From the NCBI GenBank assembly GCA_947469815.1, contig CANIRI010000037.1, forward strand, positions 1-11,530: a stretch of 11,530 nucleotides of DNA, in the 5' to 3' direction. Under the pieces are notes generated by a model that was given only the letters and a program-made list of their open reading frames with translations, did not search any database and was not told the DNA's origin. Origin of the DNA: Comamonadaceae bacterium. Its GTDB lineage: Bacteria; Pseudomonadota; Gammaproteobacteria; Burkholderiales; Burkholderiaceae_C. Shown piece after piece: positions 654 through 11,530 of this stretch (position 1 is its first letter; the number at the start of each line of letters is the position of its first letter). A program made the position numbers and the translations under genes.

Positions 654-1706
654 TCAGGATTGGTTGAGGTTGTACTTCATGATGCGGCCATGCGGCCCCG
701 TCTTGTCGCGCTCCAGACTATACGGCGCGCCCGCAGGGCCCGGGCAGGCATCCAATATCGGCTGCAAAAGCGCGTGGTCTGCGGCATCGAGTGCAAAGCG
801 AAAGACTTCCAGCGTGCTGGCCAGGCGGTCCGCGTAGCGCGCACCCACAATCGCAGCGGCCACACTGGGCTGCTCCAGCACCCAGCGCACCGCCACGCTG
901 GACAGGCTGACCGCATAGCGCCGCGCAATCTGGTCCAAGGCCTGCAAGAGCGACTGGAAGGCGGCCCAACCGCCGAACTCGTCAATGATGAGTTGGTATT
1001 TCACCAGCGAGCGGTTCGCTAAGGGCGCTTGCGGCTGCGGCTTGCCGAGCCACTGCTCCGTTAAAAACCCCCCGGCCAGGGTGCCGTAACACAGCAGTTG
1101 CATGCCATGGCCTTGTGCCAACGCGGCCAAATCATGCGCCGGGCGGCGGTCAAGCAGGGAGTATTGCGTTTGCATACTCACCAGCGGCACCCCGGCATCC
1201 ATGATTTCCAGCGCATGCGCGCTATCGAAGTTGGTACCGCCGATGCGGGCAATCAGACCTTCTTTTTGCAGCGCATACAAAGCCAGCGCGGTTTCCACAT
1301 AGCGCGGCACGCCGTAGTCCCACCAATGGAACTGCACCAGATCCAGGCACTCGGTGTCCAGGCGTTGCAGCGAACGGGTGATGATGCGCCGCACATAGGC
1401 CGCGTCCACCGTCGCCAGGTCGGCGTAGTTCGGCACAAACTTGGTGTGCACCTGCATGCGCGGCAGCCCAGCGGCACGGCGGGCGCGGTTGAACGCGCCA
1501 TACATATCTTCGACGCCGGTGTAAATATCGGCACCATCCACGGTGTTCATACCGGCGTCCAGAAAAACGCCCATGTCGGCAATGGCGCGTTCGCGCTCCA
1601 CCGGGCCGTGGTCACCGGCGAGTTGCCAGCCGCCCCGGATCACGCGCGCGATGCGGTAGCCGGGTGCCAGGGCAGTCGTCTCAACCGTCGGGCTGGCCAG
1701 GCTCAT
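654..1706 (-). CDS. Aldo/keto reductase family protein
   Basis: A 350-residue NAD(P)H-dependent (beta/alpha)8-barrel reductase of the COG0667 type, near the usual family length. The catalytic tetrad is visible: Asp57 and Tyr62 in DGADIY, Lys89 in HTKF, and His127 in VQFHWWD. Later family signs are IARIGGTNFD (152-161), MQTQYSLLDRRP (178-189) and the cofactor-binding AAIVGAR (284-290). The ATG at 1706 was chosen because it overlaps the stop of the upstream gene as ATGA. An in-frame start further upstream (1793) would read deep into that gene. No signal peptide, so cytoplasmic. The aldehyde or ketone substrate cannot be told from sequence. Its place in an oxalurate/oxamate operon suggests a role with glyoxylate-like or ureide-derived carbonyls, or with a compound brought in by the adjacent transporter. 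That is inference only. Confidence 0.9.
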   Translation of the reverse strand: MSLASPTVETTALAPGYRIARVIRGGWQLAGDHGPVERERAIADMGVFLDAGMNTVDGADIYTGVEDMYGAFNRARRAAGLPRMQVHTKFVPNYADLATVDAAYVRRIITRSLQRLDTECLDLVQFHWWDYGVPRYVETALALYALQKEGLIARIGGTNFDSAHALEIMDAGVPLVSMQTQYSLLDRRPAHDLAALAQGHGMQLLCYGTLAGGFLTEQWLGKPQPQAPLANRSLVKYQLIIDEFGGWAAFQSLLQALDQIARRYAVSLSSVAVRWVLEQPSVAAAIVGARYADRLASTLEVFRFALDAADHALLQPILDACPGPAGAPYSLERDKTGPHGRIMKYNLNQS

Positions 1707-2047
1707 CTGACGGGCGGCATGGGTACCGCGGTTGTCTCGCTGTGGCGGAAGGTCCGTTTGCCCAGACGGGTGATGCGAAAACGCGTGGGGCAATGCGGAT
1801 CCGGACAGGCGACTTCGGCGTCGGTGCTCATCCAGTCCGCTTCGTGCGTGGCCCGCTGCTTGGCGGGCAAAAGCGGCAGCACAGCCGCCAGCGAATACAT
1901 GGAAAAACCCTGGCCATCGGGGAAGTGCAAGACCTCGCCACGGACCTCGAAGTAATCACCCACCCGGGCGTTGCATTGGATCTTGCGCTCGTCGTGCACC
2001 ACGACTTCCACCCGCAGGTCGTACAACTCAAATTCGTCGGCTTGCAT
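1703..2047 (-). CDS. TIGR04076 family small protein, function unknown
   Basis: A 114-residue soluble protein with no signal peptide or membrane segment. The N-terminal half is a small beta-rich region (LYDLRVEVVVHDERK, then CNARVGDYFEVRGEVLHFP). It is followed by FSMYSLAAVLPLLPAKQR and a Cys-containing segment ACPDPHC near residues 80-86 leading into TRFRITRL. The order 'C...VGD.FEV', 'YSLAAVLP', 'CPD' and 'FRI.R' matches my memory of the TIGR04076 family, which has no assigned biochemical role. An AAAGG ribosome site (2054-2058) lies 6 nt before the ATG. The gene begins 15 nt after the amidohydrolase stop, and its TGA overlaps the reductase ATG, so the two are probably translationally coupled. 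The three cysteines could bind a metal, but the spacing does not prove it. Confidence 0.78.
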   Translation of the reverse strand: MQADEFELYDLRVEVVVHDERKIQCNARVGDYFEVRGEVLHFPDGQGFSMYSLAAVLPLLPAKQRATHEADWMSTDAEVACPDPHCPTRFRITRLGKRTFRHSETTAVPMPPVR

Positions 2048-2062
2048 CGTGAACCTTTGGCT

Positions 2063-3688
2063 TTAAAACGCTGCCACCAAACCGTCGCTGCGCGGATCCG
2101 CAGCGCCCAAGTACAAGCCATCGGTCTGGCGCACGATAGCGCCAGCATGGCCCATGGTGTCGCTGTAGTCGCCGAGGATTTCCACATCGTGGCCAGCGGC
2201 TGACAAGGTCTGCATCACCTGCGGGTCAAAGCGGTTCTCGAACTTCAGCGTGGTGCTTTCCTGGCCCCAGGTTTTGCCCAGCAACCAGCGCGGCGCGCTC
2301 ACCGCCTGCTGTAAGGTCTGGCCGTAAAACGCGTAGCGGCTGAACACCGCCGACTGGCTTTGCGGCTGGCCGTCGCCACCCATATTGCCGTAGACCATGT
2401 GGCGGCCATCGTCGAAGCGCGCATGTACCGGGTTCAGGGTGTGGAAGGGTTTTTTGTGCGGAGCCAAAACCAGGTGCGAGGCCGGGTCCAGCGAGAAGCT
2501 CGATCCCCGGTTTTGCCAGGCAATGCCGGTGTCTGCCAGCACCACGCCCGAGCCGAACTCCCAGTACACGCTCTGTATGTAGCTGACCATGCGGCCCTGC
2601 GCATCGGCCGTGCCCATCCAGATGGTGTCACCGGGAATGCTGCGCTCCGGCCAGGGCAAGGCCTTGGCCATGTCCACGGCTTCGACGCAGCTGTCGATAA
2701 AGCTGTCGCTCAGGAATTGCGCAGGGCTCACGCCCATGCGGTCCATGGTGGCCGGGTCGGCCACGAAGCGGTTGCGGACCTTGAAGGCCTGCTTGGTGGC
2801 TTCCACCAGCGCGTGCAAATACGGCGCGCCGTCGGCCTCGTGGATACCGTGGCGCAAGCGCAAGCGGTCGAAGATGGCCAGGATCATCAACGAGGCCAAG
2901 CCCTGCGTGGGCGGCGTCATGTTGTACAGCGTGGCACCGGTCACGCGCACACTCAGCGGCGTCACGCTGCTGGCGCTGTGCGCATGCAAATCAGCCAGGC
3001 GCAGCGGCCCACCCAGGCGCTCGTGCTCGGCGGCAATGGCCGCAGCGACGCTGCCCCGGTAATGGTCGTCCAAGCCCTTGTCGGCCAAGGTTTGCAGCGT
3101 GCGCGCCAAGGCGGGGTAGCGGCGCAGCGTGTTGACCAGCGGCACCTGCCCCGCCGCGCCGGTGGCGGCTGGCGCATCCAAAAACTGTCCGGCAAAGCCG
3201 GGAATATGGGCCAACTCTGGCAAAAATTTGCCCGTGAAATTGACCTGGCTTTGGGTGACCGGCGCGCCTTCGCGGGCGTACCAGATCGCGTCTTGCAGCA
3301 AGCGCGCAACCGGCAGCTTGCCGCCCAAACGTTCGCTGTGGCGCAGCGCTTCCTGCCAGCCCGATATGGCACCAGCGACCGTGTTGGCCGCCAGCGGACC
3401 ACGTCCGGGAATGGCTTTGTGACCGGCGTAAAAATCCAGCGTTGCCGCACCGGCCGCGCGGCCGCAAGCGTCAATGGCCACCGGTGCTTGGCCGGGTTCG
3501 GAGATCAGCCAGAAGCCGTCACCGCCGATGGCGTTCATGTGGGGGTAGACCACGGCAATCGTGGCGGCTGCGGCGACCATGGCCTCGATGGCGTTGCCGC
3601 CCTCGCGCAAGACCGCGCAGGCGCTGCTGGCAGCCAGGTGGTGGGGCGCGGTCACCATGCCGCGCGGGGAAGTCAGAGTTTGGCGCAT
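2063..3688 (-). CDS. hpxW: Gamma-glutamyltransferase-family Ntn-hydrolase, probable oxamate amidohydrolase (HpxW-like)
   Basis: A 541-residue protein of the gamma-glutamyltransferase fold, made as one chain and expected to self-cleave before the nucleophile Thr355 (in PGDTIWMG). An ungapped comparison from memory with E. coli Ggt sets Thr391 against Thr355 and also matches Asp362, Gly365 and Ser369; the second hydroxyl, Thr409, becomes Ser373. Glycine-rich GNMGGDG is at 434-440. There is no signal peptide, unlike periplasmic Ggt. Residues that hold the glutamyl alpha-amino and carboxylate groups in Ggt differ (Asn411 to Tyr375, Asp433 to Ser397, Ser462-Ser463 to His416-Thr417), so a different substrate is likely. 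Directly upstream are the oxamate carbamoyltransferase genes, and Klebsiella HpxW is a family member that hydrolyses oxamate to oxalate and ammonia. Oxamate is therefore the favoured substrate. The start is 9 nt after the allG stop, with a weak GAAAG site. Family certain, substrate inferred. Confidence 0.9.
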   Translation of the reverse strand: MRQTLTSPRGMVTAPHHLAASSACAVLREGGNAIEAMVAAAATIAVVYPHMNAIGGDGFWLISEPGQAPVAIDACGRAAGAATLDFYAGHKAIPGRGPLAANTVAGAISGWQEALRHSERLGGKLPVARLLQDAIWYAREGAPVTQSQVNFTGKFLPELAHIPGFAGQFLDAPAATGAAGQVPLVNTLRRYPALARTLQTLADKGLDDHYRGSVAAAIAAEHERLGGPLRLADLHAHSASSVTPLSVRVTGATLYNMTPPTQGLASLMILAIFDRLRLRHGIHEADGAPYLHALVEATKQAFKVRNRFVADPATMDRMGVSPAQFLSDSFIDSCVEAVDMAKALPWPERSIPGDTIWMGTADAQGRMVSYIQSVYWEFGSGVVLADTGIAWQNRGSSFSLDPASHLVLAPHKKPFHTLNPVHARFDDGRHMVYGNMGGDGQPQSQSAVFSRYAFYGQTLQQAVSAPRWLLGKTWGQESTTLKFENRFDPQVMQTLSAAGHDVEILGDYSDTMGHAGAIVRQTDGLYLGAADPRSDGLVAAF

Positions 3689-3697
3689 AGCGAGCTT

Positions 3698-5143
3698 TCA
3701 GTCTTTCAAAAATTGCTGCGTCATGGCTTCGAACGCAGACACATAACAGGCCATGGGCACACGCACCACGCCGGCACCGATCTGGCCGACGCCGGCTTTT
3801 TTGTGGGCAATGCCGGTAGTCACCAGCGGGCGGATGCCGGTGTCGAGCACCTTGCGCACATCGATACCGCAGGGCGCGCCGGCAAAGTCCAGCGCGGGCA
3901 GGCTCAAGGCGGGGTTTTTGGTGACGGTGATCTCGTACATCTCCTGGCTGTAGCGCACCGCGTCGCTGACCGAGCCACCGGCCAGCAGCGTGAGCGCGGG
4001 CGATGCCGCAAACGAGCAACCACCGAAACCGGCGGTCTCGGTGATGGCGCTGTCGCCGATGTCGGGGCAGGCGTCGTCTTGCGAGAAACCGGGGAAGTAC
4101 AAGCCGTTGGGCAGATCCGATTTGGCGGTAAACCATTGCTGGCCCAGGCCGCTGATGCGCAAGCCGGTCTCGGTGCCGTTGCGCGCCATGGCCGTGACCA
4201 CCGAGCTGAAAGGCACGCCGTGGGCTGCGTCCATGATGGCTTTGCACGACACCATCGAAAAGTTCAAAAAGAACTGCGAGGTCTTGGCCACAAAGTCCAA
4301 AGTCTGGTGGATATGGTCTTGCGGCACCCGGCCCTGCGCGGCGGCCAGGGGCACGGCCAGGGTCATGAAAAACAGCGAGGTGGATGCGGCGTTGCGGCTG
4401 TGTACCTCGTCACCCATGAGCAGCGCCTGCGACTGAATGGCCTTGAGGTCAATGCCACCGGTCTTGTCAAAGTTGTGGCGCACAGCGGCTTTCAAAACCG
4501 GTGCCAGCACGTTCTCAAACCACTTGAGGCGCTGCAACACATCCGGGCCATTCGCACCAAAGCGCAGGCAGCGGCCGATGCCTTCGTTGATGTTGGTGTA
4601 GGCCACATTACCGTGTGTCGCATCGCGCACCTGGATCACCGGCATGGACGGGCTGATGATGCCGGTCATGGGCCCCACGGCCTGGAAGTCGTGGCACTGT
4701 CCGAACGCGATCTCGCCGCGTTGCAGCATTTTTTCGGCCTGCTCTGCCGTTTTGGCCCAGCCCTCGTACAAGACCGCGCCAATCATCGCGCCGTGCATGG
4801 GCCCGCACATATCACCCCAGGCCACCGGCGGGCCCGCGTGCAGCAGCAGCCGCGCACCCTTCATCTCGCTCCACACGCCATCGGCACGCAGGGCGACGTC
4901 TTCCCACATGGGCCGGGAATTGATGATGCGCTGGGTCACTTCCTGATTGGCTGCCGCAATGCGCGGGTCGTCCATCAGGCGTGCGAGGTTCCAGGCCAAG
5001 ACGGGGTCGGCGTTACCCGGCGGACGCCAGCCCAGGTGGTCGACTTGCCCGCCGTTGTGGCTGATGCTGTCATTGAATCCATCGATGCCGATATTGAGAA
5101 CAGCGGGTGGCTGGCTGAGCAGGGAGTTGGCAGGCATTTTCAT
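3698..5143 (-). CDS. allG: DUF1116 protein, oxamate carbamoyltransferase subunit AllG (YlbE family)
   Basis: A 481-residue DUF1116 protein, homologous to E. coli AllG (formerly YlbE). With AllF and AllH it forms the oxamate carbamoyltransferase that phosphorolyses oxalurate to oxamate and carbamoyl phosphate. Conserved-looking blocks are LLHAGPPV (100-107), GPMHGAMIGA (114-123), VGPMTGIISPSMPV (156-169), MGDEVHSRNAAST (243-255), CKAIMDAAHGV (300-310), ARNGTETGLRISGLG (320-334) and GDSAITETAGFGG (363-375). There is no signal peptide or clear membrane helix, so it is cytoplasmic. The ATG at 5143 overlaps the allH stop as ATGA and is preferred over an in-frame upstream start at 5167. A GGAAA site lies just before it. 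The length is full for the family. The subunit role is established for E. coli; its transfer here rests on family and on the neighbouring allF, allH and allK. Confidence 0.9.
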   Translation of the reverse strand: MKMPANSLLSQPPAVLNIGIDGFNDSISHNGGQVDHLGWRPPGNADPVLAWNLARLMDDPRIAAANQEVTQRIINSRPMWEDVALRADGVWSEMKGARLLLHAGPPVAWGDMCGPMHGAMIGAVLYEGWAKTAEQAEKMLQRGEIAFGQCHDFQAVGPMTGIISPSMPVIQVRDATHGNVAYTNINEGIGRCLRFGANGPDVLQRLKWFENVLAPVLKAAVRHNFDKTGGIDLKAIQSQALLMGDEVHSRNAASTSLFFMTLAVPLAAAQGRVPQDHIHQTLDFVAKTSQFFLNFSMVSCKAIMDAAHGVPFSSVVTAMARNGTETGLRISGLGQQWFTAKSDLPNGLYFPGFSQDDACPDIGDSAITETAGFGGCSFAASPALTLLAGGSVSDAVRYSQEMYEITVTKNPALSLPALDFAGAPCGIDVRKVLDTGIRPLVTTGIAHKKAGVGQIGAGVVRVPMACYVSAFEAMTQQFLKD

Positions 5144-5859
5144 AAGGTTTCCGCAGGGGGTTCGCAAATCTGTAAAGCCAAAAAGACGCCGGCCAGCATA
5201 TCGCCGCCCGAGCTGGCGCCCAGGCCCAAAAGCCGGTTGACGGCGTCGGTGATCCGGCGCGGTTCACCGGCCTGGAAAGCGTCGAATACATCGTGCAGCA
5301 CGCGGTAGCTGCTGCCGCGCATCAGGTCATCGAGCAAGGCCGCGCTGATCGGGTTAGTCGCACTTTGTGCGGCGCTTCTAATGCGGGCGTGCACACCCGG
5401 CATGGCGCTGCGCCAAGCCGCATCAGACGTGATGGGCGCGTGCGCCAGGGTAAAGAAAATGCCGCCCAAGAGGTCGTCGCCACTCGGTGTGAGACCGTGG
5501 CCCAGACCCAGAACGCGCAGCGCGGCGGCCTGAAAAGCAGCGAGGTCTTGCGCGCGCAGCGACTGAGCCACAGCGTTCAGCCGGGGCCGCGCCAGGTCCA
5601 ACGGAAACACCAGACGCTGCCCGGCTAGCCAACCGAGCAGGCCGATGTGCGTATCCATGCCCGCCCAGGCCTGCGCCGCACCGCTGCGAAGCGCTTTCGC
5701 GTCGTATGCGACCGGCGCGGCATTCCAGGGATGCGCTAGGTTCCGCGGGTGGTCGGTGCGGGCCTTGGAGCCGGTCCAGACGATGCGTCCGTCCATAAGC
5801 GCGTAGTCCGTGGTCTCGAAACCCGGTACGGCTTGCAAGTCGGTCGCGGCAAGATTCAC
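5140..5859 (-). CDS. allH: DUF2877 protein, oxamate carbamoyltransferase subunit AllH (YlbF family)
   Basis: About 239 residues of the DUF2877 family, the third subunit of the AllFGH oxamate carbamoyltransferase of E. coli (AllH, formerly YlbF). The hallmark is LGLGHGLTPSGDDLLGG (117-133), echoed near the C-terminus by LLGLGASSGGDMLAG (210-224). Both glycine/Asp-rich loops are also present in the E. coli protein as I remember it. The start is uncertain. A GTG at 5859 overlaps the carbamate kinase stop as GTGA, matching the ATGA joins elsewhere in this operon, and was chosen for that reason. A TTG at 5877 would add six residues. No ATG is available before an in-frame stop a little further upstream, and neither start has a strong ribosome site. 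The N-terminus seems slightly shorter than in E. coli. The protein is soluble and cytoplasmic. Confidence 0.86.
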   Translation of the reverse strand: MNLAATDLQAVPGFETTDYALMDGRIVWTGSKARTDHPRNLAHPWNAAPVAYDAKALRSGAAQAWAGMDTHIGLLGWLAGQRLVFPLDLARPRLNAVAQSLRAQDLAAFQAAALRVLGLGHGLTPSGDDLLGGIFFTLAHAPITSDAAWRSAMPGVHARIRSAAQSATNPISAALLDDLMRGSSYRVLHDVFDAFQAGEPRRITDAVNRLLGLGASSGGDMLAGVFLALQICEPPAETL

Positions 5860-6848
5860 CGGGGCGGCGCTTTGCAAGTGATGTGCGTGCCCGCCCGCCC
5901 CATCAGCGCGTCAAACGCACGCTCCAGCGAGGTGATGATCACTTCGCCATCGTGGTTGGCGTTGGGCAGCTCTTCCAGGTAGCTGATGGCCGCTTCGATC
6001 TTGGGCCCCATGCTGCCGGGCGGGAACTGGCCATCGGCGGTGTACTGGCGCGCCTGCGCCAAAGTCATGTGGTCCAGCGGCCGCTGGGTCGGCTTGTTGA
6101 AGTCCAGCGCCACCTGCTCCACACCGGTGAGCATGATCAGCGCATCGGCATGCAAATGCGCCGCCAGCATGGCGCTGGTCAGGTCTTTGTCAATCACCGC
6201 CGCAACACCGGTCCAGTGGCCGTTGTCGCCATGCAGCACCGGCACGCCGCCACCGCCGCAGGCGATGGGGATCACGCCCGCATCCAGCAGCGCGTCAATG
6301 GTTTTGAGGTCCAGGATTTTTTTCGGTTTGGGGCTGGCCACCATGCGCCGCCAGCCGCGCCCCGAATCTTCGGCAAAAAGCCAGCCGGTCTTGGCCGCCA
6401 TATCGGCCGCATCGGCTTCGCTGAAAAACTTGCCCACCGGTTTGGTCGGGTTTTTGAAAGCAGGGTCATCGACGTCGACTTCGACTTCGGTGACCACGCA
6501 GGACACCACAATGTCCATGCCGCTGTCGACCAGCACATTGGCAAAACTCTGCTGCAGCATATAGCCCATGCCGCCTTGCGAATGCGCCACGCACACGTCC
6601 ATGGGCATGGGCGGCAGCTCATCCGCCGTGCGCGCCATGCGGTACAAAATATTCCCCACCACCGGTCCGTTGCCATGGGTTAGCACCAGCTGCCAACCGG
6701 CGCGGATGATCTCGACCAAATGCGCGCAGACCTGGCGCATCAAAACCAGCTGTTCTTCGGCCGTGCCTTTGATCGTCGGCGGGTAGGCAGCGTTGCCGCC
6801 CAGCGCCACCACGACCCGCTTGCGCGCAGGCACGGGGCCGGTATTCAT
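5856..6848 (-). CDS. allK: Carbamate kinase, catabolic (AllK/ArcC family)
   Basis: A 330-residue amino-acid-kinase-fold enzyme that transfers the phosphate of carbamoyl phosphate to ADP. It makes ATP and carbamate, which falls apart to CO2 and ammonia. Family motifs are VVVALGGNA (12-20), THGNGPVVGN (57-66), HSQGGMGYMLQQ (89-100), RRMVASPKP (167-175), CGGGGVPV (197-204), VIDKDLTSAMLA (218-229), TGVE (241-244) and FPPGSMGPKIEAA (275-287). The length is typical. The ATG at 6848 overlaps the allF stop as ATGA; an in-frame start at 6872 is less likely. The gene sits between allF and allH/allG, so the kinase is made together with the enzyme that forms its substrate. This is the energy-yielding step of the oxalurate route, as with E. 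coli AllK (formerly YbcF), rather than part of an arginine deiminase pathway: no arcA or arcB is present. Confidence 0.95.
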   Translation of the reverse strand: MNTGPVPARKRVVVALGGNAAYPPTIKGTAEEQLVLMRQVCAHLVEIIRAGWQLVLTHGNGPVVGNILYRMARTADELPPMPMDVCVAHSQGGMGYMLQQSFANVLVDSGMDIVVSCVVTEVEVDVDDPAFKNPTKPVGKFFSEADAADMAAKTGWLFAEDSGRGWRRMVASPKPKKILDLKTIDALLDAGVIPIACGGGGVPVLHGDNGHWTGVAAVIDKDLTSAMLAAHLHADALIMLTGVEQVALDFNKPTQRPLDHMTLAQARQYTADGQFPPGSMGPKIEAAISYLEELPNANHDGEVIITSLERAFDALMGRAGTHITCKAPPR

Positions 6849-8398
6849 CGCACCCACTCGCCGGCCAACCAAGCCGCGTTAGCGCTGTTGCCCGCCAGCA
6901 CCATACCGGCGGCGCGCAGCGTGGCTTCCTGTGCGCTCAGGACCTGCGGGTCGGTCTCGGTGCCACACACAAAACCCACGACCGCCAGGTTGCGACCGGC
7001 TTTACGCGCCACCGCCTTGGCACGTTGGATAGCCGGGGCCAGTTCGCCCGCCGGGTTGCTGTGCGCGCCCCAGCCGATCACCACATCCAGCAAGATGACG
7101 CGCACCGACGGGTCAGCGGCTTCCATGGCCAAGCGTTCGATGCGCGCGGCCTGGTCGATCATGGGGTGCGGACGGCCTACGGTGAACGCATCGTCGCCCA
7201 AATCCAGCGCGCTGTGGGCCTGGCTGGCCTGGCGCGGATGCGGCAGTTCCATGTCTTTGTTCAAGGGTACGTTGGACCAGACGCTCAAGCCCGCAGCCGC
7301 CCACAGCAACTGCGCCTCGGCCGCAAAAGTGCCGCCGGAGAACAGTGCGCGCAAATACTTTTGGCCTTTGCCAAAAACCGGCTTTTTCGGCAGCTCATAC
7401 ACCGGCGGTGTGCTGCGCCGCACACCCGCCAGCTTGACCGCCAGCGCCGCGCAATCGACCAGCGTGTGGGCCACGCGCACCAGACTGCCTTTGGCGGGTT
7501 TGGGCAGCGTTGCCGCATGGCCCAAAAACAACACGATGGACGGTTTGCCGGTCGCCTGCAGCGCCCCCAGCACCCGCGCAGCCACCACCGCGCCCGGCGG
7601 CTTGGAGACGATGACGATGACCTTGGTCGCTGCGTCTTGGGCCAGCAAGGCAATGCCTTGCAGCATGGTCGCGCCGCCCACCGCGTCATACACATCGCGC
7701 CCACCGGTTCCGATGGCGTGGCTGATACCACCGCCCATGCGGTGGATCTGCGTGCTCACCTCCTGCAAGCCCGTGCCCGATGCGGCCACCAGCCCAATGG
7801 AGCCGCGCCGCACCGCGTTGGCAAAACCCAAAGGCACGCCGCCGATGATGGCGGTGCCGCAGTCCGGCCCCATCACCAGCAGGCCGCGCCGGGTGGCCTC
7901 GCGCTTGAGCGCCGCTTCCTGTGCCAGCGGGACGTTGTCACTGAACAAAAACACGTTAAGTCCGAGCTTGATAGCCTTGAGCGCCTCGGCCGCTGCATAG
8001 GGACCAGGGACTGAGATCTGTGCCAAGTTGGCACCGGCCAAAGCGGCCTTGCCCATACCCAGATTGGTGGGCACCACCCGCGTTGCGTCTGCATCCTGCG
8101 GCCCTGCCGCCTGGGTGCCTGCCAGTTCGGCTTTGCAACGGGTGACCGCAGCGTCGCAGGCGTCCGCTGTGCGCGCCTGCACCACCACCATCACGTCGCT
8201 GGGTCCGGCGTCTTGCACTGCGCTCTTGAGCAAGCCGGCCTCACGCAAGATGTCCTTGTTCGCCGGGTTGCCCATCTGCAAGGTGGCGTTGACCACGCCG
8301 GGCATGGCCAACAAACTTTGCGCCACGCGCATCAGGGCGACGGAGTCTTTGTACAGGTTGGCGTGGATGAATGCGGCCGTGTGCAGGGAGGTGGTCAT
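6845..8398 (-). CDS. allF: FdrA/AllF-type protein, oxamate carbamoyltransferase subunit
   Basis: A 517-residue protein of the FdrA family, which resembles the succinyl-CoA synthetase alpha chain and is often labelled 'acyl-CoA synthetase FdrA'. In E. coli the same family member is AllF, a subunit of oxamate carbamoyltransferase, and that role fits this operon better. Motifs are IHANLYKDSVALM (11-23), LFSDNVPL (151-158), MGPDCGTAIIGG (176-187), LVAASGTGLQEVSTQI (203-218), SHAIGTGGRDV (226-236), GRPHPMID (408-415) and LLDVVIGWGAHSNP (436-449). These include the Rossmann-like nucleotide/CoA-type loops of the fold. The ATG at 8398 was chosen; a TTG at 8413 would add five residues. The ribosome site is weak (GGA, ten bases upstream). 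It is the first gene of the leftward operon, facing pucG across a 51-bp gap, and its stop overlaps the allK start. Confidence 0.92.
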   Translation of the reverse strand: MTTSLHTAAFIHANLYKDSVALMRVAQSLLAMPGVVNATLQMGNPANKDILREAGLLKSAVQDAGPSDVMVVVQARTADACDAAVTRCKAELAGTQAAGPQDADATRVVPTNLGMGKAALAGANLAQISVPGPYAAAEALKAIKLGLNVFLFSDNVPLAQEAALKREATRRGLLVMGPDCGTAIIGGVPLGFANAVRRGSIGLVAASGTGLQEVSTQIHRMGGGISHAIGTGGRDVYDAVGGATMLQGIALLAQDAATKVIVIVSKPPGAVVAARVLGALQATGKPSIVLFLGHAATLPKPAKGSLVRVAHTLVDCAALAVKLAGVRRSTPPVYELPKKPVFGKGQKYLRALFSGGTFAAEAQLLWAAAGLSVWSNVPLNKDMELPHPRQASQAHSALDLGDDAFTVGRPHPMIDQAARIERLAMEAADPSVRVILLDVVIGWGAHSNPAGELAPAIQRAKAVARKAGRNLAVVGFVCGTETDPQVLSAQEATLRAAGMVLAGNSANAAWLAGEWVR

Positions 8399-8420
8399 GC
8401 GGGGGCAATCCAAGGGGATT

Positions 8421-8430
8421 TTGTTAACAA
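8421..8430. promoter_or_regulatory. Palindromic operator candidate TTGTTAACAA between allF and pucG
   Basis: A perfect 10-bp palindrome in the 51-bp gap between the divergent allF and pucG starts. The pattern TTGT-N2-ACAA resembles sites bound by GntR-family regulators of the FCD group. It lies just upstream of the pucG -10 candidate and downstream of the leftward -10 candidate, so one bound dimer could affect both directions. Position and symmetry are seen directly; the regulator family is inference, and no regulator gene is in the window. Confidence 0.45.
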
Positions 8431-8432
8431 TT

Positions 8433-8441
8433 TGCTATCAT
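8433..8441 (+). promoter_or_regulatory. Extended -10 promoter element for pucG (TG-C-TATCAT)
   Basis: TGCTATCAT matches an extended -10 (TGnTATAAT) with one mismatch. No good -35 sits 16-18 bp upstream, which suits an extended -10 promoter under activator or repressor control. Transcription would begin near 8448-8450, almost on the first ATG at 8450. This implies either leaderless translation from 8450 or use of the ATG at 8504. Confidence 0.45.
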
Positions 8442-8442
8442 A
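8437..8442 (-). promoter_or_regulatory. Candidate -10 (TATGAT) for the leftward allF operon
   Basis: Read on the minus strand, 8442-8437 is TATGAT, overlapping base for base with the plus-strand TATCAT element. No convincing -35 is visible upstream, and TATAAA just before it is an alternative. If both are real, polymerase could occupy only one direction at a time. Weak evidence. Confidence 0.3.
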
Positions 8443-8449
8443 CTTTTAT

Positions 8450-9724
8450 ATGTCCAGCACCCACCTCCCCAGCCTCTCCCCCTTGCCAAACCCCGCCAGC
8501 GCCATGGACGAATTGCATTTCGCCCCGCGCCTGCTGATGGGCCCCGGCCCCATCAACGCCGACCCCCGGGTGCTCAAGGCCATGTCCTCCCAATTGCTGG
8601 GGCAGTTTGACCCGCAGTTCCGCCGCATGATGCGCGAAACCATGGCGCTGTACCGCGCGTTTTTTGAGACGCAAAACGACTGGACGCTGGTGCTCGACGG
8701 AACCGCCCGCTCGGCCATCGAGATGGTCATGCTCTCGGCCATTGAGCCCGGCGACAAGGTGCTGGTCTGCAGCTTCGGCCGCTTCGGCCAACTGCTCAAC
8801 GAGATTGCCCAACGCTGCGGCGCGAATGTGCAGGTGGTGCAAGCGCCATGGGGCACGGTGTTTGATTTGGCACAGATCGAGGCGGCGCTTCAATCGTTCT
8901 CGCCCAAGCTGGTAGCCATCTGCCAAGGGGACACCTCCACCACCATGTTGCAACCGCTAGACGGCTTGGGCGCTTTGTGCCACCGCTATGGCGCGATGCT
9001 GCAAGTCGACGCGACCGCATCCTGCGGCGGCACGCCCCTGCCGGTGGACGCATGGGCCATCGACGCGGTGACCGCAGGCTTGCAAAAATGCCTGGCCGGT
9101 CCCTCGGGCGCAGCGCCCATCACCTTGTCGGACGAGATGGCGCGCACCATTTACCGCCGCCGCCACATTGAAGACGGCTTGCAACCCGCAGGCTATGTGC
9201 CCGGCGCGGGCAAGCGCATCGCGTCCAACTACATGGACATGGCGATGATCATGGACTACTGGAGCGACGCCGGTCTGAACCACCACACCGAAGCCACCAC
9301 CATGCTCTATGGCGCGCGCGAATGCGCCCGCATTTTTGTGCAAGAGGGCTTGCCCCAGGCCTACGCCCGCCACGCCGCCGCATCGCGCGCAGTCGTCGCC
9401 GGGGTGCAGGGCATGAACCTCAAACCCTACGGCGATATCAGCAACAAAATGCCCAACGTCACCGGCGTCTACATCCCCGATGGCATCAACGGCGACAAGC
9501 TGCGCGCCGCTTTGCTGAACGACTTCAACATCGAAATCGGCACCAGCTTCGGCCCCTTGGCCGGCAAGGTCTGGCGTATTGGCGCCATGGGCTACAACGC
9601 ACGCCTTGATTGCGTGCTGCAAACCCTGGGCGCGCTGGAGATAGTGCTCGCCGCAGAGGGCCACCGCTTCACGCGGGGGGCGGGGGTAGATGCGGCTTAT
9701 CAGGCTTATAAGGGCGGGGCTTAG
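8450..9724 (+). CDS. pucG: Class V PLP aminotransferase, probable (S)-ureidoglycine:glyoxylate aminotransferase
   Basis: A 424-residue fold-type I enzyme of the alanine:glyoxylate/PucG family. Visible features are RLLMGPGPINADPR (27-40), the phosphate/PLP region DGTARSAIEMVM (83-94), Asp187 in QVDA (pyridine nitrogen), the Schiff-base Lys213 in GLQKCLAGPSG, and the substrate carboxylate Arg377 in VWRIGAMG. An Asn-Tyr pair at 260-261 lies where, from memory, PucG-type enzymes carry a ureido-group contact; an alignment would settle this. The reaction is ureidoglycine + glyoxylate to oxalurate + glycine, the step that feeds the divergent allFGHK genes. The start is ambiguous: ATG 8450 gives an 18-residue Ser/Pro-rich leader, while ATG 8504 (MDELHF) is closer to where I recall the family beginning. 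Neither has a clear ribosome site. Alternatives are alanine- or serine-glyoxylate aminotransferase; the context argues against them. Confidence 0.87.
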   Translation: MSSTHLPSLSPLPNPASAMDELHFAPRLLMGPGPINADPRVLKAMSSQLLGQFDPQFRRMMRETMALYRAFFETQNDWTLVLDGTARSAIEMVMLSAIEPGDKVLVCSFGRFGQLLNEIAQRCGANVQVVQAPWGTVFDLAQIEAALQSFSPKLVAICQGDTSTTMLQPLDGLGALCHRYGAMLQVDATASCGGTPLPVDAWAIDAVTAGLQKCLAGPSGAAPITLSDEMARTIYRRRHIEDGLQPAGYVPGAGKRIASNYMDMAMIMDYWSDAGLNHHTEATTMLYGARECARIFVQEGLPQAYARHAAASRAVVAGVQGMNLKPYGDISNKMPNVTGVYIPDGINGDKLRAALLNDFNIEIGTSFGPLAGKVWRIGAMGYNARLDCVLQTLGALEIVLAAEGHRFTRGAGVDAAYQAYKGGA

Positions 9725-9944
9725 ACGATTAAGGCCCCGCTTGGGCCGACCCTCGCTGAACGACGGAGCTTGGCCACCTTAGATGGAAGGCTTCCATAAC
9801 AGCCACTTGCTGACAACTGCTCGTGGCCCGGTTCGGTCGGCGTTGGCAAGTACCGCCTTATCGCACCCATAAGGGCTAATGACCCAAAAAATCCGCAAAT
9901 AAAATCACCATACAAATGTCTACACATCGGTGCACCATTGCACC
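9725..9944. other. Intergenic region between pucG and brnT, with hairpin and palindrome
   Basis: About 220 bp with no convincing gene. Just after the pucG stop is a short inverted repeat GGCCC-CGCTT-GGGCC (9733-9747) without a T-run, so at best a weak terminator. A 15-bp perfect palindrome around one central base (ATGGAAGGCTTCCAT) is at 9783-9797. GCCGACC (9745-9751) is repeated inverted as GGTCGGC at 9835-9841. The last 60 bp become AT-rich and include TAAAAT (9900-9905) as a weak -10 candidate for brnT. Confidence 0.5.
9783..9797. repeat. 15-bp palindrome ATGGAAGGCTTCCAT
   Basis: Seven bases on each side of a central G are perfectly complementary. As RNA the stem could close only five pairs over a five-base loop. 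It may be an operator, or part of a short dispersed intergenic repeat. Symmetry is seen directly; function is unknown. Confidence 0.5.
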
Positions 9945-9946
9945 AT
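9931..9946 (+). repeat. Tandem 8-bp repeat TGCACCAT x2 over the brnT start
   Basis: Two exact adjacent copies, 9931-9938 and 9939-9946. The second runs into the brnT ATG (9945-9947). GGTGCACC (9929-9936) is also a perfect palindrome. Because BrnA-type antitoxins repress their own promoter, this is a candidate operator, or it may affect ribosome access at the start codon. Confidence 0.45.
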
Positions 9947-10247
9947 GAGGTTTTCGGGCTTTGAATGGCATGAGGGAAACTGGCCCAAATGTGGCAAACA
10001 TGGTGTTACCCGCGAGGAAATCGAGCACCTGTTCGCCTCTGCGCGGGTTGCTCCCGATTTGTTGCGTTCTCAGAAGGAGACGCGGTACATCGCGGTTGGC
10101 CGAAACCAATCCGGGCGGGCTATGTTCGTAGCGTTTGCTATCAAGCAAGCTCAGGGTGGCCTGCATCTCATTCGGCCCATCAGCGCACGCTTTATGCACG
10201 AAAAGGAAGTACAACGGTATGAAGAAAATTCCGACGCTCAAAACTGA
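9945..10247 (+). CDS. brnT: BrnT family toxin (type II toxin-antitoxin ribonuclease)
   Basis: A 100-residue protein with the BrnT pattern: FEWHEGNWPKCGKHGVTREEIEHLF (in two parts, residues 6-30), KETRYIAVGR (44-53), MFVAFAIKQ (60-68), and the family-defining RPISARFMHEKEVQRYE (77-93). BrnT is a RelE-like ribonuclease that halts translation when not bound by BrnA. The ATG at 9945 gives the standard MRF start; an in-frame GTG at 9930 would add five residues. No strong ribosome site is visible. The next gene overlaps its end by 29 nt, in the usual toxin-first order. The gene is visibly more AT-rich than the ureide genes, consistent with acquisition as a mobile module. Confidence 0.88.
   Translation: MRFSGFEWHEGNWPKCGKHGVTREEIEHLFASARVAPDLLRSQKETRYIAVGRNQSGRAMFVAFAIKQAQGGLHLIRPISARFMHEKEVQRYEENSDAQN
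10203..10209 (+). promoter_or_regulatory. Ribosome binding site for brnA (AAGGAAG)
   Basis: AAGGAAG ends 9 nt before the brnA ATG at 10219 and lies within brnT. It fixes the brnA start over the in-frame upstream ATG at 10135 and suggests the antitoxin is translated more strongly than the toxin, which has no clear site. Confidence 0.7.
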
Positions 10248-10470
10248 CCAGCAAGCGGAAGCTTTCTTGGATCAAGACCTGTCAGATCTCGATTTTTCAC
10301 AATTCAAAACCATGCGGCTTGAATTTGCCCCGAAGTCGGCGGCGCTGCATTTGCGACTTCCTGAAGCGCTGCTAGAGGGCCTTAAAGTCCGCGCAAAGGC
10401 TCAAGGAGTGCCCTACACCCGGTACGTGCGGATGCTCTTGGAAAATGACTTGGCAAAGGGTCATTCTTAA
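10219..10470 (+). CDS. brnA: BrnA-type CopG/ribbon-helix-helix antitoxin
   Basis: An 83-residue protein. The N-terminal acidic segment AEAFLDQDLSDLDFSQF (13-29) probably wraps the toxin. The C-terminal ribbon-helix-helix domain has a short strand (AALHLRLPE, 41-49), a helix (LLEGLKVRAKAQG, 51-63) and a second helix (YTRYVRMLLENDLA, 66-79), the pattern of CopG-like BrnA proteins. The start is set by the AAGGAAG site at 10203-10209. It overlaps the end of brnT by 29 nt, so the two are co-transcribed. By family precedent it neutralises BrnT and represses the brnTA promoter, probably near the repeats at 9929-9946. Confidence 0.87.
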   Translation: MKKIPTLKTDQQAEAFLDQDLSDLDFSQFKTMRLEFAPKSAALHLRLPEALLEGLKVRAKAQGVPYTRYVRMLLENDLAKGHS

Positions 10471-10615: not shown

Positions 10616-10906
10616 TCAGACATTGATCGCGTCGCGCGCAATGTAAGCGCGCAATTCCTTACGAAGCGCCTTGTCGGTTACCAGATCGACCGGGCATTGC
10701 AAGACATCCTCTAGGTAAAACCGCGCGCCGAAATACTGCTTGGATGTCGCCGCCGTATTGAACGAAATCAGAATATCCACATCGCTGCCTTCATGGGCTT
10801 GCCCGCGCGCAGTCGAGCCAAAGAGCGCCAGACTGCTCACGCCAAATTGGCGTGCGAGTTGCGGCTTGTGCGTGGCCAGCAAGATTAATGCAGTTTGACG
10901 ATCCAT
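10616..10906 (-). CDS. MNT-type minimal nucleotidyltransferase, no HEPN partner visible
   Basis: A 96-residue MNT-domain protein. The polymerase-beta-type signature is complete: LFGSTARGQAHEGSDVDILI with Gly30-Ser31, catalytic Asp42 and Asp44, and a third carboxylate Asp74 in VDLV (73-76). Proteins of this size usually act as the antitoxin of a HEPN/MNT pair, silencing the HEPN ribonuclease by AMPylating it. No HEPN gene lies next to it: downstream are only about 145 bp before brnA (opposite strand), and upstream is the aldolase. It starts at ATG 10906, 9 nt after the aldolase stop and without a clear ribosome site, so it may be read through from the aldolase transcript. Catalysis looks intact; its partner or target is unknown. 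Confidence 0.88.
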   Translation of the reverse strand: MDRQTALILLATHKPQLARQFGVSSLALFGSTARGQAHEGSDVDILISFNTAATSKQYFGARFYLEDVLQCPVDLVTDKALRKELRAYIARDAINV

Positions 10907-10915
10907 CGTAATTGT

Positions 10916-11530
10916 TTACGGGAGCGGCTTTGTACTCCCCCACCCCCAAGCCCCCGCATATTCCAGCGCCTTCACCCGCACCGCCTCCGTATCCGCACCC
11001 GGCGCATACAACTGGCTGCCAATCCCAAAACCCGTAGCTCCCGCTGCGACCCAGCCTGCCATGCTGCTTGGCGTGATGCCGCCGACCGGCCAGAGTTCGG
11101 TGCCAGACGGCAGCACCGAGGCCAGGGCTTTGAGGCCGCTGGGGCCCAGCACATCTGCAGGAAATAGTTTCAGTGCGTGGGCGCCGGCTTGCAGGGCAGT
11201 AAATGCTTCGGTGGGGGTGATGACGCCGGGCACGGCCAACATGCCCAAGCGTACGGCGTGTGCGATCAGGCGCGCATCGCAATGCGGCGAGACCATCAGG
11301 CGGCCACCGGCTGCGTACACGTCGTCCACGTCTTGCAGCGTACACATGGTGCCGCCGCCGATCAACACATCCGAGGGCAGCGTTTTGACCAGCGCTTCTA
11401 TGCAGGCCAGCGCACCGGGCCGGTTCAGCGGGACTTCCAGCGCGCGAAAGCCGCAGGCAACCAGGGTCTGGCCGATGTGGGCGGCGTGCTGCGGGTCGAG
11501 CCCGCGCAAGATGGCGATTAACGGCATGGG
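10916..11530 (-). CDS. dgoA: 2-dehydro-3-deoxy-6-phosphogalactonate aldolase (DgoA-type), N-terminus probably beyond the edge
   Basis: At least 203 residues of the class I KDPG/KDPGal aldolase family, which splits the 2-keto-3-deoxy-6-phospho sugar acid to pyruvate and glyceraldehyde 3-phosphate. Visible features (numbered from ATG 11527) are PLIAILRG (2-9), Glu31 in EVPLNRPG, IGGGT (56-60), the Schiff-base Lys120 in ALKLFPAD, PVGGITPSS (147-155) and FGIGSQLY (167-174). The PLIAILRG start and EVPLN favour DgoA (galactonate route) over Eda, which differs at these points. ATG 11527 is at the edge, and the frame stays open upstream (next codon Pro). E. coli DgoA has several residues before PLIAILRG, so the true start is probably outside the window. 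A kinase (dgoK) would be expected to the right. It has no obvious link to the ureide genes. Confidence 0.88.
   Translation of the reverse strand, partial: PMPLIAILRGLDPQHAAHIGQTLVACGFRALEVPLNRPGALACIEALVKTLPSDVLIGGGTMCTLQDVDDVYAAGGRLMVSPHCDARLIAHAVRLGMLAVPGVITPTEAFTALQAGAHALKLFPADVLGPSGLKALASVLPSGTELWPVGGITPSSMAGWVAAGATGFGIGSQLYAPGADTEAVRVKALEYAGAWGWGSTKPLP

Follow-up and report, generated by a model that had tools for sequence, protein, structure and literature searches.

A six-gene cluster in Comamonadaceae predicted to convert ureidoglycine to oxalate through oxalurate and oxamate with recovery of ATP

Introduction

The oxamic transcarbamylase (OXTCase) of Escherichia coli was shown in 2024 to be AllFGH (PMC11326118; the papers cited here were available in part, and what is said of them refers to those parts). 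An earlier study, from 2012, had considered fdrA, ylbE, and ylbF as OXTCase candidates (PMC3364942). For each allantoin, E. coli obtains one ATP through its oxamate branch, along with one oxamate and 3 NH3 (PMC12535856). HpxXY has been named oxalurate amidohydrolase (PMC12625717), and Klebsiella pneumoniae is without AllFGHK according to Kim and Kim 2024 (PMC11326118). A 2016 essay suggested that the oxamate from a transcarbamylase step is the substrate of HpxW and noted that the HpxW-like protein YwrD co-evolves with xanthine-degradation genes in Bacillus subtilis (PMC5270733); hpxW is often mislabeled ggt (PMC3560190). Here we describe a stretch of 11,530 bp from a Comamonadaceae bacterium (contig CANIRI010000037.1), hereafter the window, in which pucG lies divergent from allF-allK-allH-allG-hpxW. 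Judging from sequence comparisons, we consider it very probable that these six genes form an energy-conserving oxalurate/oxamate branch of purine (ureide) breakdown, with predicted activities for their products.

Results

Layout of the cluster

The window is the entire contig C37 of its own genome (G000), a metagenome-assembled genome (MAG) with Comamonadaceae kin that is 2.31 Mb in 317 contigs and 75% complete; because the window is the whole contig, sequence past its ends is not visible. An open reading frame list and family scans of the window showed the six cluster genes to be intact, with coordinates unchanged from a first-pass annotation of the same DNA, and all six match families for the four successive steps that this annotation had placed side by side. 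It had also described pucG as facing allF-allK-allH-allG-hpxW; the genes and their order stand, but the orientation does not, since pucG and allF diverge back to back. The features are as follows.

8504..9724, plus strand: pucG/hpxJ, predicted (S)-ureidoglycine aminotransferase (UGXT), 406 aa; Aminotran_5 2e-23; likely start ATG 8504
8399..8503, no strand: intergenic region of 105 bp separating the likely starts of the divergent genes allF and pucG
6845..8413, minus strand: allF (fdrA), predicted OXTCase subunit; likely start ATG 8398; FdrA PRK06091 4e-143
5856..6872, minus strand: allK, predicted carbamate kinase; likely start ATG 6848; AA_kinase, arcC
5140..5877, minus strand: allH, predicted OXTCase subunit; PF11392 AllH 6e-19
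3698..5167, minus strand: allG, predicted OXTCase subunit; likely start ATG 5143; PF06545 AllG 1e-83
2063..3688, minus strand: hpxW, predicted oxamate amidohydrolase, Ntn-hydrolase proenzyme; G_glu_transpept 4e-118

The five minus-strand genes run in order of transcription from 8413 to 2063. ATGA overlaps join allF to allK and allH to allG, allK and allH overlap by 22 nt if TTG is taken as the allH start, and the gap between allG and hpxW is 9 nt. These tight junctions are compatible with a single operon, and we infer that the five genes are cotranscribed. No match to a sigma-70-like promoter was found in positions 8300-8600 around the divergent region, and the window holds no RNA family above gathering score and no tRNA.

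Family assignments

The closest solved relative of the window aminotransferase is Klebsiella HpxJ (3nnk; 518.6 bits, 58% identity). Bacillus PucG (3isl) matched with 396.3 bits and 47% identity, and alanine-/serine-glyoxylate aminotransferases (AGTs) reached at most 280.2 bits, the best being 1vjo; the query protein in these searches began at 8507, one codon after the likely ATG at 8504. Residues Q34 and N259 align to Q37 and N264 of PucG, where 1vjo has histidine and tyrosine, and the same Gln/Asn pair is found in PucG and HpxJ. We take the Gln and Asn at PucG positions 37 and 264 to be important for UGXT. Together these data support the assignment of the protein as a UGXT rather than an AGT. 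The function implied by the first-pass name PucG is supported, but the nearer relative is HpxJ.

AllF scored 477.9 bits against PRK06091 FdrA (cut-off 433), matched the E. coli FdrA structure 3dmy with 283 bits, and is 41% identical to E. coli AllF. In NCBIfam, AllF is named an acyl-CoA synthetase. AllK fell just below the cut-off of the arcC model (357.0 bits; cut-off 358.25) and passed that of PRK12352 (343.4 bits; cut-off 266); its structure match is the carbamate kinase 1e19, and it is 39% identical to its E. coli counterpart. AllH scored 69.2 bits against PF11392 (cut-off 25) and is 31% identical to E. coli AllH across 124 residues only. AllG scored 280.3 bits against PF06545 and shares 50% identity with AllG of the E. 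coli OXTCase. All three predicted OXTCase subunits are encoded close together in the window, and with FdrA and carbamate kinases as the best solved relatives and AllG at 50% identity, the AllFGH and AllK assignments are supported. No window protein matched AllE or AllD; a genome-wide search for these two was not made.

The hpxW product matches both chains of Klebsiella HpxW (5hft; 313.1 bits for chain A and 263 bits for chain B) and shares 57% identity with it and 28% with E. coli Ggt, which supports the earlier HpxW assignment. The border between chains A and B falls at D354/T355 of the window protein, and the proenzyme is predicted to be cut before T355 into parts of 37 and 20 kDa. Six Ggt residues (R114, N411, Q430, D433, S462, and S463 in E. 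coli numbering) that we take to be active-site positions, with R114 and D433 as presumed substrate contacts, are C, Y, R, S, H, and T in the window protein and S, Y, R, A, H, and T in 5hft. The catalytic Thr (T355) and the Gly-Gly pair are retained. With these pocket residues replaced and a score of 270.1 bits against the Ggt model TIGR00066 (cut-off 357.85), identification as gamma-glutamyltransferase (Ggt, also GGT) was rejected; by its residues, the protein is without the substrate pocket of true gamma-glutamyltransferases.

In the proposed route, UGXT would transfer the amino group of (S)-ureidoglycine to glyoxylate, yielding oxalurate and glycine. AllFGH would convert oxalurate and phosphate (Pi) to oxamate and carbamoyl phosphate, AllK would turn carbamoyl phosphate and ADP into ATP, CO2, and NH3, and HpxW would hydrolyze oxamate to oxalate and NH3. 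The net reaction would be ureidoglycine + glyoxylate + Pi + ADP to glycine + oxalate + 2 NH3 + CO2 + ATP. If the NH3 set free by allantoate amidohydrolase is included, the route would gain one ATP per allantoin and recover all four of its nitrogens, as one glycine and three NH3. The substrates, the direction, the use of glyoxylate as acceptor, and the flux are what we infer from the genes. By consuming oxamate, HpxW should draw AllFGH in the forward direction, as the published scheme shows a reversible OXTCase reaction (PMC11326118).

Conservation and phylogeny

An AllG query returned 15 related loci in genome contigs. HpxW lies immediately after AllG in 11 of them (L002-L011 and L014), and pucG is divergent from allF in all nine of those 11 whose contig reaches that far. 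The other four (L012, L013, L015, and L016) have allF, allK, and allG without HpxW or pucG. The gene order recurs down to 75% AllG identity, and flanking genes are common only to close kin (window/L002/L004/L005; L007/L008; L010/L011). Because the flanks differ outside close kin, the six genes constitute the conserved unit, and the recurrence of their order in 11 of 15 loci indicates an arrangement that is more than chance. Going by where their AllG falls in the tree, L014 (labeled Cytophagales) and L016 (labeled Klebsiella) have probably been misbinned or mislabeled; L014 is probably the same contig as G426:C1 (each 84,291 bp).

In a sample of 299 genomes of the family, AllG-type genes were present in 11 and UGXT (E up to 1e-90) in 6, representing four genera. 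In all six UGXT genomes, AllG and HpxW share a contig with UGXT at distances of up to about 8 kb; in G493 and G544, the contig end truncates HpxW. Besides the 29 genomes of the sample with an HpxW-like protein of at least 466 bits, G493 and G608 have HpxW-like edge fragments. In a sample of 399 genomes of the order, AllG was present in 36 and UGXT in 24; UGXT and a strong AllG (at least 280 bits) occur together in 10 of these 24, the genome of the window included. Of the 23 other UGXT genomes, 19 encode an HpxW with at least 53% identity at some position in the genome, and G010, G059, G097, and G241 have matches of 35-41% only. HpxW lies on the same contig as AllG, some 12-13 kb away, in G211 and G300. 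In G002, a single gene separates pucG from the divergent allFKHG, and in G059, UGXT is situated between allG-allF and PuuE. The unlinked HpxW of G002 stands behind a zinc-type alcohol dehydrogenase (L133:7418-10133), and a neighbor of the same size and similar start as this dehydrogenase recurs in L131, L137, and L138.

AllG rows with stops, exact duplicates, rows below 80 bits, and rows shorter than 250 residues were removed before counting and before an AllG tree of 55 rows was built. In this tree, a single clade (100/100), nested in a 24-row clade (99/84), is made up of the 16 rows that show the HpxW-linked arrangement; E. coli AllG falls in another clade, despite its 50% identity to the window protein. 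In 14 of these 16 loci, the contig extends far enough to show pucG, and in all 14 it is divergent from allF. The deepest of the 24 rows is G442, in which HpxW also follows AllG; another contig of its genome (L074) carries allF and allG once more, along with a weak match to AllH, and the genome has no UGXT at E 1e-90. In a tree of 20 hand-picked HpxW rows, the window, G502, G426, L010, and G442 group together at 100/98, which supports a single origin for the HpxW genes linked to AllG; no firm branching order emerges for 5hft, G062, and the other HpxW-like proteins. The AllG rows between G442 and the clade of the window have no adjacent HpxW. This interrupted distribution implies either a single formation of the pair with loss in between or a joint transfer of both genes.

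A distant second pairing occurs in G465 and G564, in a row of an amidohydrolase, an HpxW-like protein, an AllG-like protein, and an NMT1-type binding protein. The AllG-like gene (DUF1116) is divergent within this row (L059:6533-11781 and L060:6698-11714), and no AllF or AllH was seen in the stretches fetched, of which L059 only was scanned for families. The row possibly represents a different use of AllG. The view that adjacency supports each assignment is upheld within limits: coconservation points to one route, but the linkage of HpxW and AllG is limited to one AllG branch plus this distant pair.

Upstream and downstream steps

The first-pass annotation had placed the earlier (allantoate) and later (oxalate) steps outside the window and had pointed to the surrounding genome for allantoinase and oxalyl-CoA genes. 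Both kinds are present in the genome of the window, and kin have fuller sets. Contig C107 encodes a PuuE allantoinase (484.8 bits; cut-off 424.6), followed by an OHCU decarboxylase (UraD; 160.4 bits, cut-off 96.25) fused to an M20 amidohydrolase, with an M20 hydrolase truncated at the contig end as the third gene. The amidohydrolase half passes only the broader hydantoinase/carbamoylase model and is named allantoate amidohydrolase because of the UraD fusion and the PuuE neighbor. In G426, the same trio lies beside an XDH-type FAD/iron-sulfur subunit, XdhC, urate oxidase (Urate_ox_N), and HIU hydrolase and is also accompanied by a GntR/FCD regulator and a xanthine/uracil-type permease. The UraD-amidohydrolase fusion was not found in G493, where the best TIGR01879 match scored 34 bits. 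A canonical AllB on contig C67 of the window's genome was rejected, as it scored 275.4 bits (cut-off 357.85) and passed the dihydropyrimidinase cut-off with 563.3 bits; on these scores, PuuE is the better allantoinase candidate.

Downstream, oxalyl-CoA decarboxylase (oxc) is above cut-off in six of the seven genomes with the AllG-HpxW type. The copy in the window's genome is truncated at the end of C72, with 550.5 bits over the first half of TIGR03254 and 559.5 bits against PRK09259 (cut-off 557). frc lies beside oxc in G426 (over cut-off) and, by similarity, in G544, G624, and G502 (G000 not searched).

We take HpxXY to hydrolyze oxalurate in Klebsiella and HpxY to belong to the AtzE family. 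The AtzE/HpxY model TIGR02715 exceeded its cut-off of 425.75 in none of the seven AllG-HpxW genomes (best in the 75% complete G000, 251.3 bits) and exceeded it in G465 and G564. A single cluster in G062 combines PuuE, UGXT, HpxW, allantoate amidohydrolase (549.6 bits; cut-off 479), and an AtzE-family protein (592.2 bits; cut-off 425.75). AllFGH and AllK would thus replace HpxXY between HpxJ and HpxW, and the occurrence of two oxalurate chemistries between the same neighbors is the main argument for the proposed pathway. In L129, L130, and L136, from another family, UGXT lies apart from AllG, and the genes near HpxW include those for an AtzE-like amidase (PRK08310 over cut-off in L129) and an amidohydrolase. 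This arrangement is perhaps a third oxalurate solution.

Glyoxylate supply

The cluster had been described as nearly self-contained. Genes predicted for the successive steps are indeed present, but the amino acceptor, glyoxylate or another keto acid, is not made by the cluster. Within the same genome, glyoxylate might come from a ureidoglycolate lyase encoded on C67 (PRK13395 over cut-off) or an isocitrate lyase encoded on C114 (749.1 bits; cut-off 562). Contig C17 encodes glyoxylate carboligase and tartronate semialdehyde reductase, which would consume surplus glyoxylate.

In G426, G544, and G624, the gene of a ketopantoate-reductase-like protein is flanked by two frc genes beside oxc; in L007 and L008 (60% identity), such a gene directly follows hpxW, and in the window's genome it directly follows isocitrate lyase. 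The copies are as follows.

L125:16302-17453: ketopantoate-reductase-like protein
L007:8160-9245: ketopantoate-reductase-like protein
L008:13304-14419: ketopantoate-reductase-like protein
L145:2151-3245: ketopantoate-reductase-like protein

From these neighbors, the protein is a candidate oxalyl-CoA reductase, the activity being a guess. A tentative and on balance doubtful extension would be a self-feeding loop, in which oxalate from HpxW is activated by frc and the oxalyl-CoA is reduced to glyoxylate for UGXT. If so, ureidoglycine would be converted wholly to glycine, CO2, NH3, and ATP. The loop is disfavored by weak matches to ketopantoate reductase models, by stop codons in the G624 copies, and by the failure to find the protein in G502, G493, and G442.

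Flanking genes

The remaining genes of the window on the hpxW side are as follows.

1703..2047, minus strand: TIGR04076 family protein; 68.1 bits, cut-off 33
654..1706, minus strand: aldo/keto reductase; PF00248, 209.9 bits
3..623, minus strand: branched-chain-amino-acid-type periplasmic binding protein, truncated at the contig end; PF13458, 95.8 bits

The TIGR04076 and aldo/keto reductase genes overlap by ATGA close behind hpxW, and the TIGR04076 gene is perhaps cotranscribed with hpxW in the window. These two proteins and the binding protein were rejected as pathway members, as they come after hpxW only in L002 and L005; the L003 contig stops inside hpxW, and the remaining kin have unrelated genes there. 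In L004 (96% AllG identity), an acetamidase/formamidase-family gene and an NMT1-type ABC transporter follow hpxW on the opposite strand (L004:13146-16818). On the other side of the window, a BrnT-like toxin and a CopG-type antitoxin adjoin pucG (9930-10470), and positions 10616-11527 hold a nucleotidyltransferase-domain gene and a KDPGal-type aldolase. In L004, the KDPGal-type aldolase comes after a DGOK kinase and a DHDPS-family gene.

Discussion

Several observations count against assigning the cluster to an oxalurate/oxamate branch. AllH shares just 31% identity with its E. coli counterpart and AllF just 41%, and neither a source of glyoxylate nor a regulator is visible in the cluster. In G442, allF-allK-allG-hpxW (L058:1756-7416) occurs without pucG or a recognizable allH on a 7.4-kb contig. 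HpxW-like proteins of at least 466 bits are found in 29 of the 299 family genomes, UGXT in 6 only. In the order sample, a strong AllG is missing from 14 of the 24 UGXT genomes, and HpxW is beside AllG in none of the 29 AllG loci checked outside the window (of 45 places listed; about 1.5 kb per side, some cut by contig ends), so a rule that HpxW follows AllG across the whole order was discarded. The amidohydrolase half of the UraD fusion scored 445.2 bits, short of the 479 required by the best allantoate amidohydrolase model. Finally, HpxW-like proteins with the same pocket residues adjoin TRAP or oligopeptide ABC transporter genes, as in L066 and L068 (60% and 54% identity; DctM/DctQ/DctP TRAP or oligopeptide-type ABC genes), and their substrates may be other than oxamate. 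With HpxW-like genes near such transporters, oxamate specificity is not proven from sequence alone.

Three other explanations were weighed. In the first, which we judge unlikely, AllFGH is a different carbamoyltransferase, for another ureido acid, and the HpxW-like protein acts on the amide of that product or on another amide. Such a role would accord with the 24-row AllG clade being distinct from that of E. coli AllG and with HpxW-like genes occurring among other neighbors, mostly without UGXT. However, UGXT makes oxalurate, UGXT, AllG, and HpxW share one locus in all six UGXT genomes of the family sample, and R114 and D433 of GGT, the presumed substrate contacts, are missing from the window HpxW. 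Oxalurate to oxamate to oxalate is, to our knowledge, the only known chain that fits UGXT, AllG, and HpxW together.

We regard it as very unlikely that the aminotransferase is instead an alanine-/serine-glyoxylate type for glyoxylate detoxification, with oxalurate coming from elsewhere (e.g., AllD) or imported. UGXT and AGT are homologous, UGXT-like genes lie apart from AllG in several genomes of the order, and G442 has allF-allK-allG-hpxW with no UGXT at the threshold used. The HpxJ and PucG scores nevertheless far exceed those of AGTs, the window protein has Gln and Asn where 1vjo has His and Tyr, and the gene is divergent from allF in every locus of the clade that could be followed that far. 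An anabolic role, in which AllFGH and AllK supply carbamoyl phosphate or oxalurate, is extremely improbable: in the published OXTCase kinetics, carbamoyl phosphate and oxamate were the starting compounds, and the scheme shows a reversible reaction (PMC11326118), but HpxW would destroy the oxamate, and the upstream ureide genes and downstream oxc/frc indicate catabolism.

An oxalurate/oxamate branch of this kind suggests that in these Comamonadaceae oxamate is a through-intermediate rather than a dead end and that AllFGH would also serve bacteria with urate oxidase among their kin. For each oxalurate, the route would conserve one ATP that is lost in hydrolysis by HpxXY, and, unlike the E. coli oxamate branch, it would retrieve the fourth nitrogen as well. 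The AllG-HpxW pairing also supports the annotation of both proteins. In the available parts of the literature searched, we found no description of a UGXT, AllFGHK, and HpxW locus. To that extent, each part is known, and the combination and its conservation are apparently undescribed, the HpxW step having been foreseen in PMC5270733. As far as the available text of that essay goes, its proposal is tied to YgeW, with no gene cluster and no transcarbamylase genes, and names no UGXT/AllFGHK/HpxW locus.

Among known systems, the allFGHK clusters of ammonia-oxidizing archaea and comammox bacteria have the same OXTCase and kinase genes and a predicted use of oxalurate, but they adjoin biuret/triuret genes, and upstream purine genes are reported absent; in the available part of that study, HpxW appears in a tree legend only (PMC12625717). 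The puc route of B. subtilis has the same ureidoglycine-glyoxylate aminotransferase (3isl), to which the window protein is less similar than to HpxJ (47% versus 58%), and the accessible sections on it mention no AllFGH-HpxW cluster (PMC6522883). The oxamate branch of the E. coli ALL pathway (allD-allFGHK) has the same oxamic transcarbamylase and carbamate kinase families in the order F-G-H-K, whereas the order in the window is F-K-H-G. Oxalurate is formed there via AllE and AllD and here would be formed via transamination; oxamate is a dead-end by-product in E. coli (PMC12535856), whereas its hydrolysis is predicted for the window cluster. The Klebsiella HPX pathway shares both the start (UGXT to oxalurate) and the end (HpxW to oxalate), and both nearest solved relatives come from Klebsiella. 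The difference lies between them: oxalurate is split there by HpxXY in a plain hydrolysis that yields no ATP, whereas here AllFGH and AllK would conserve it.

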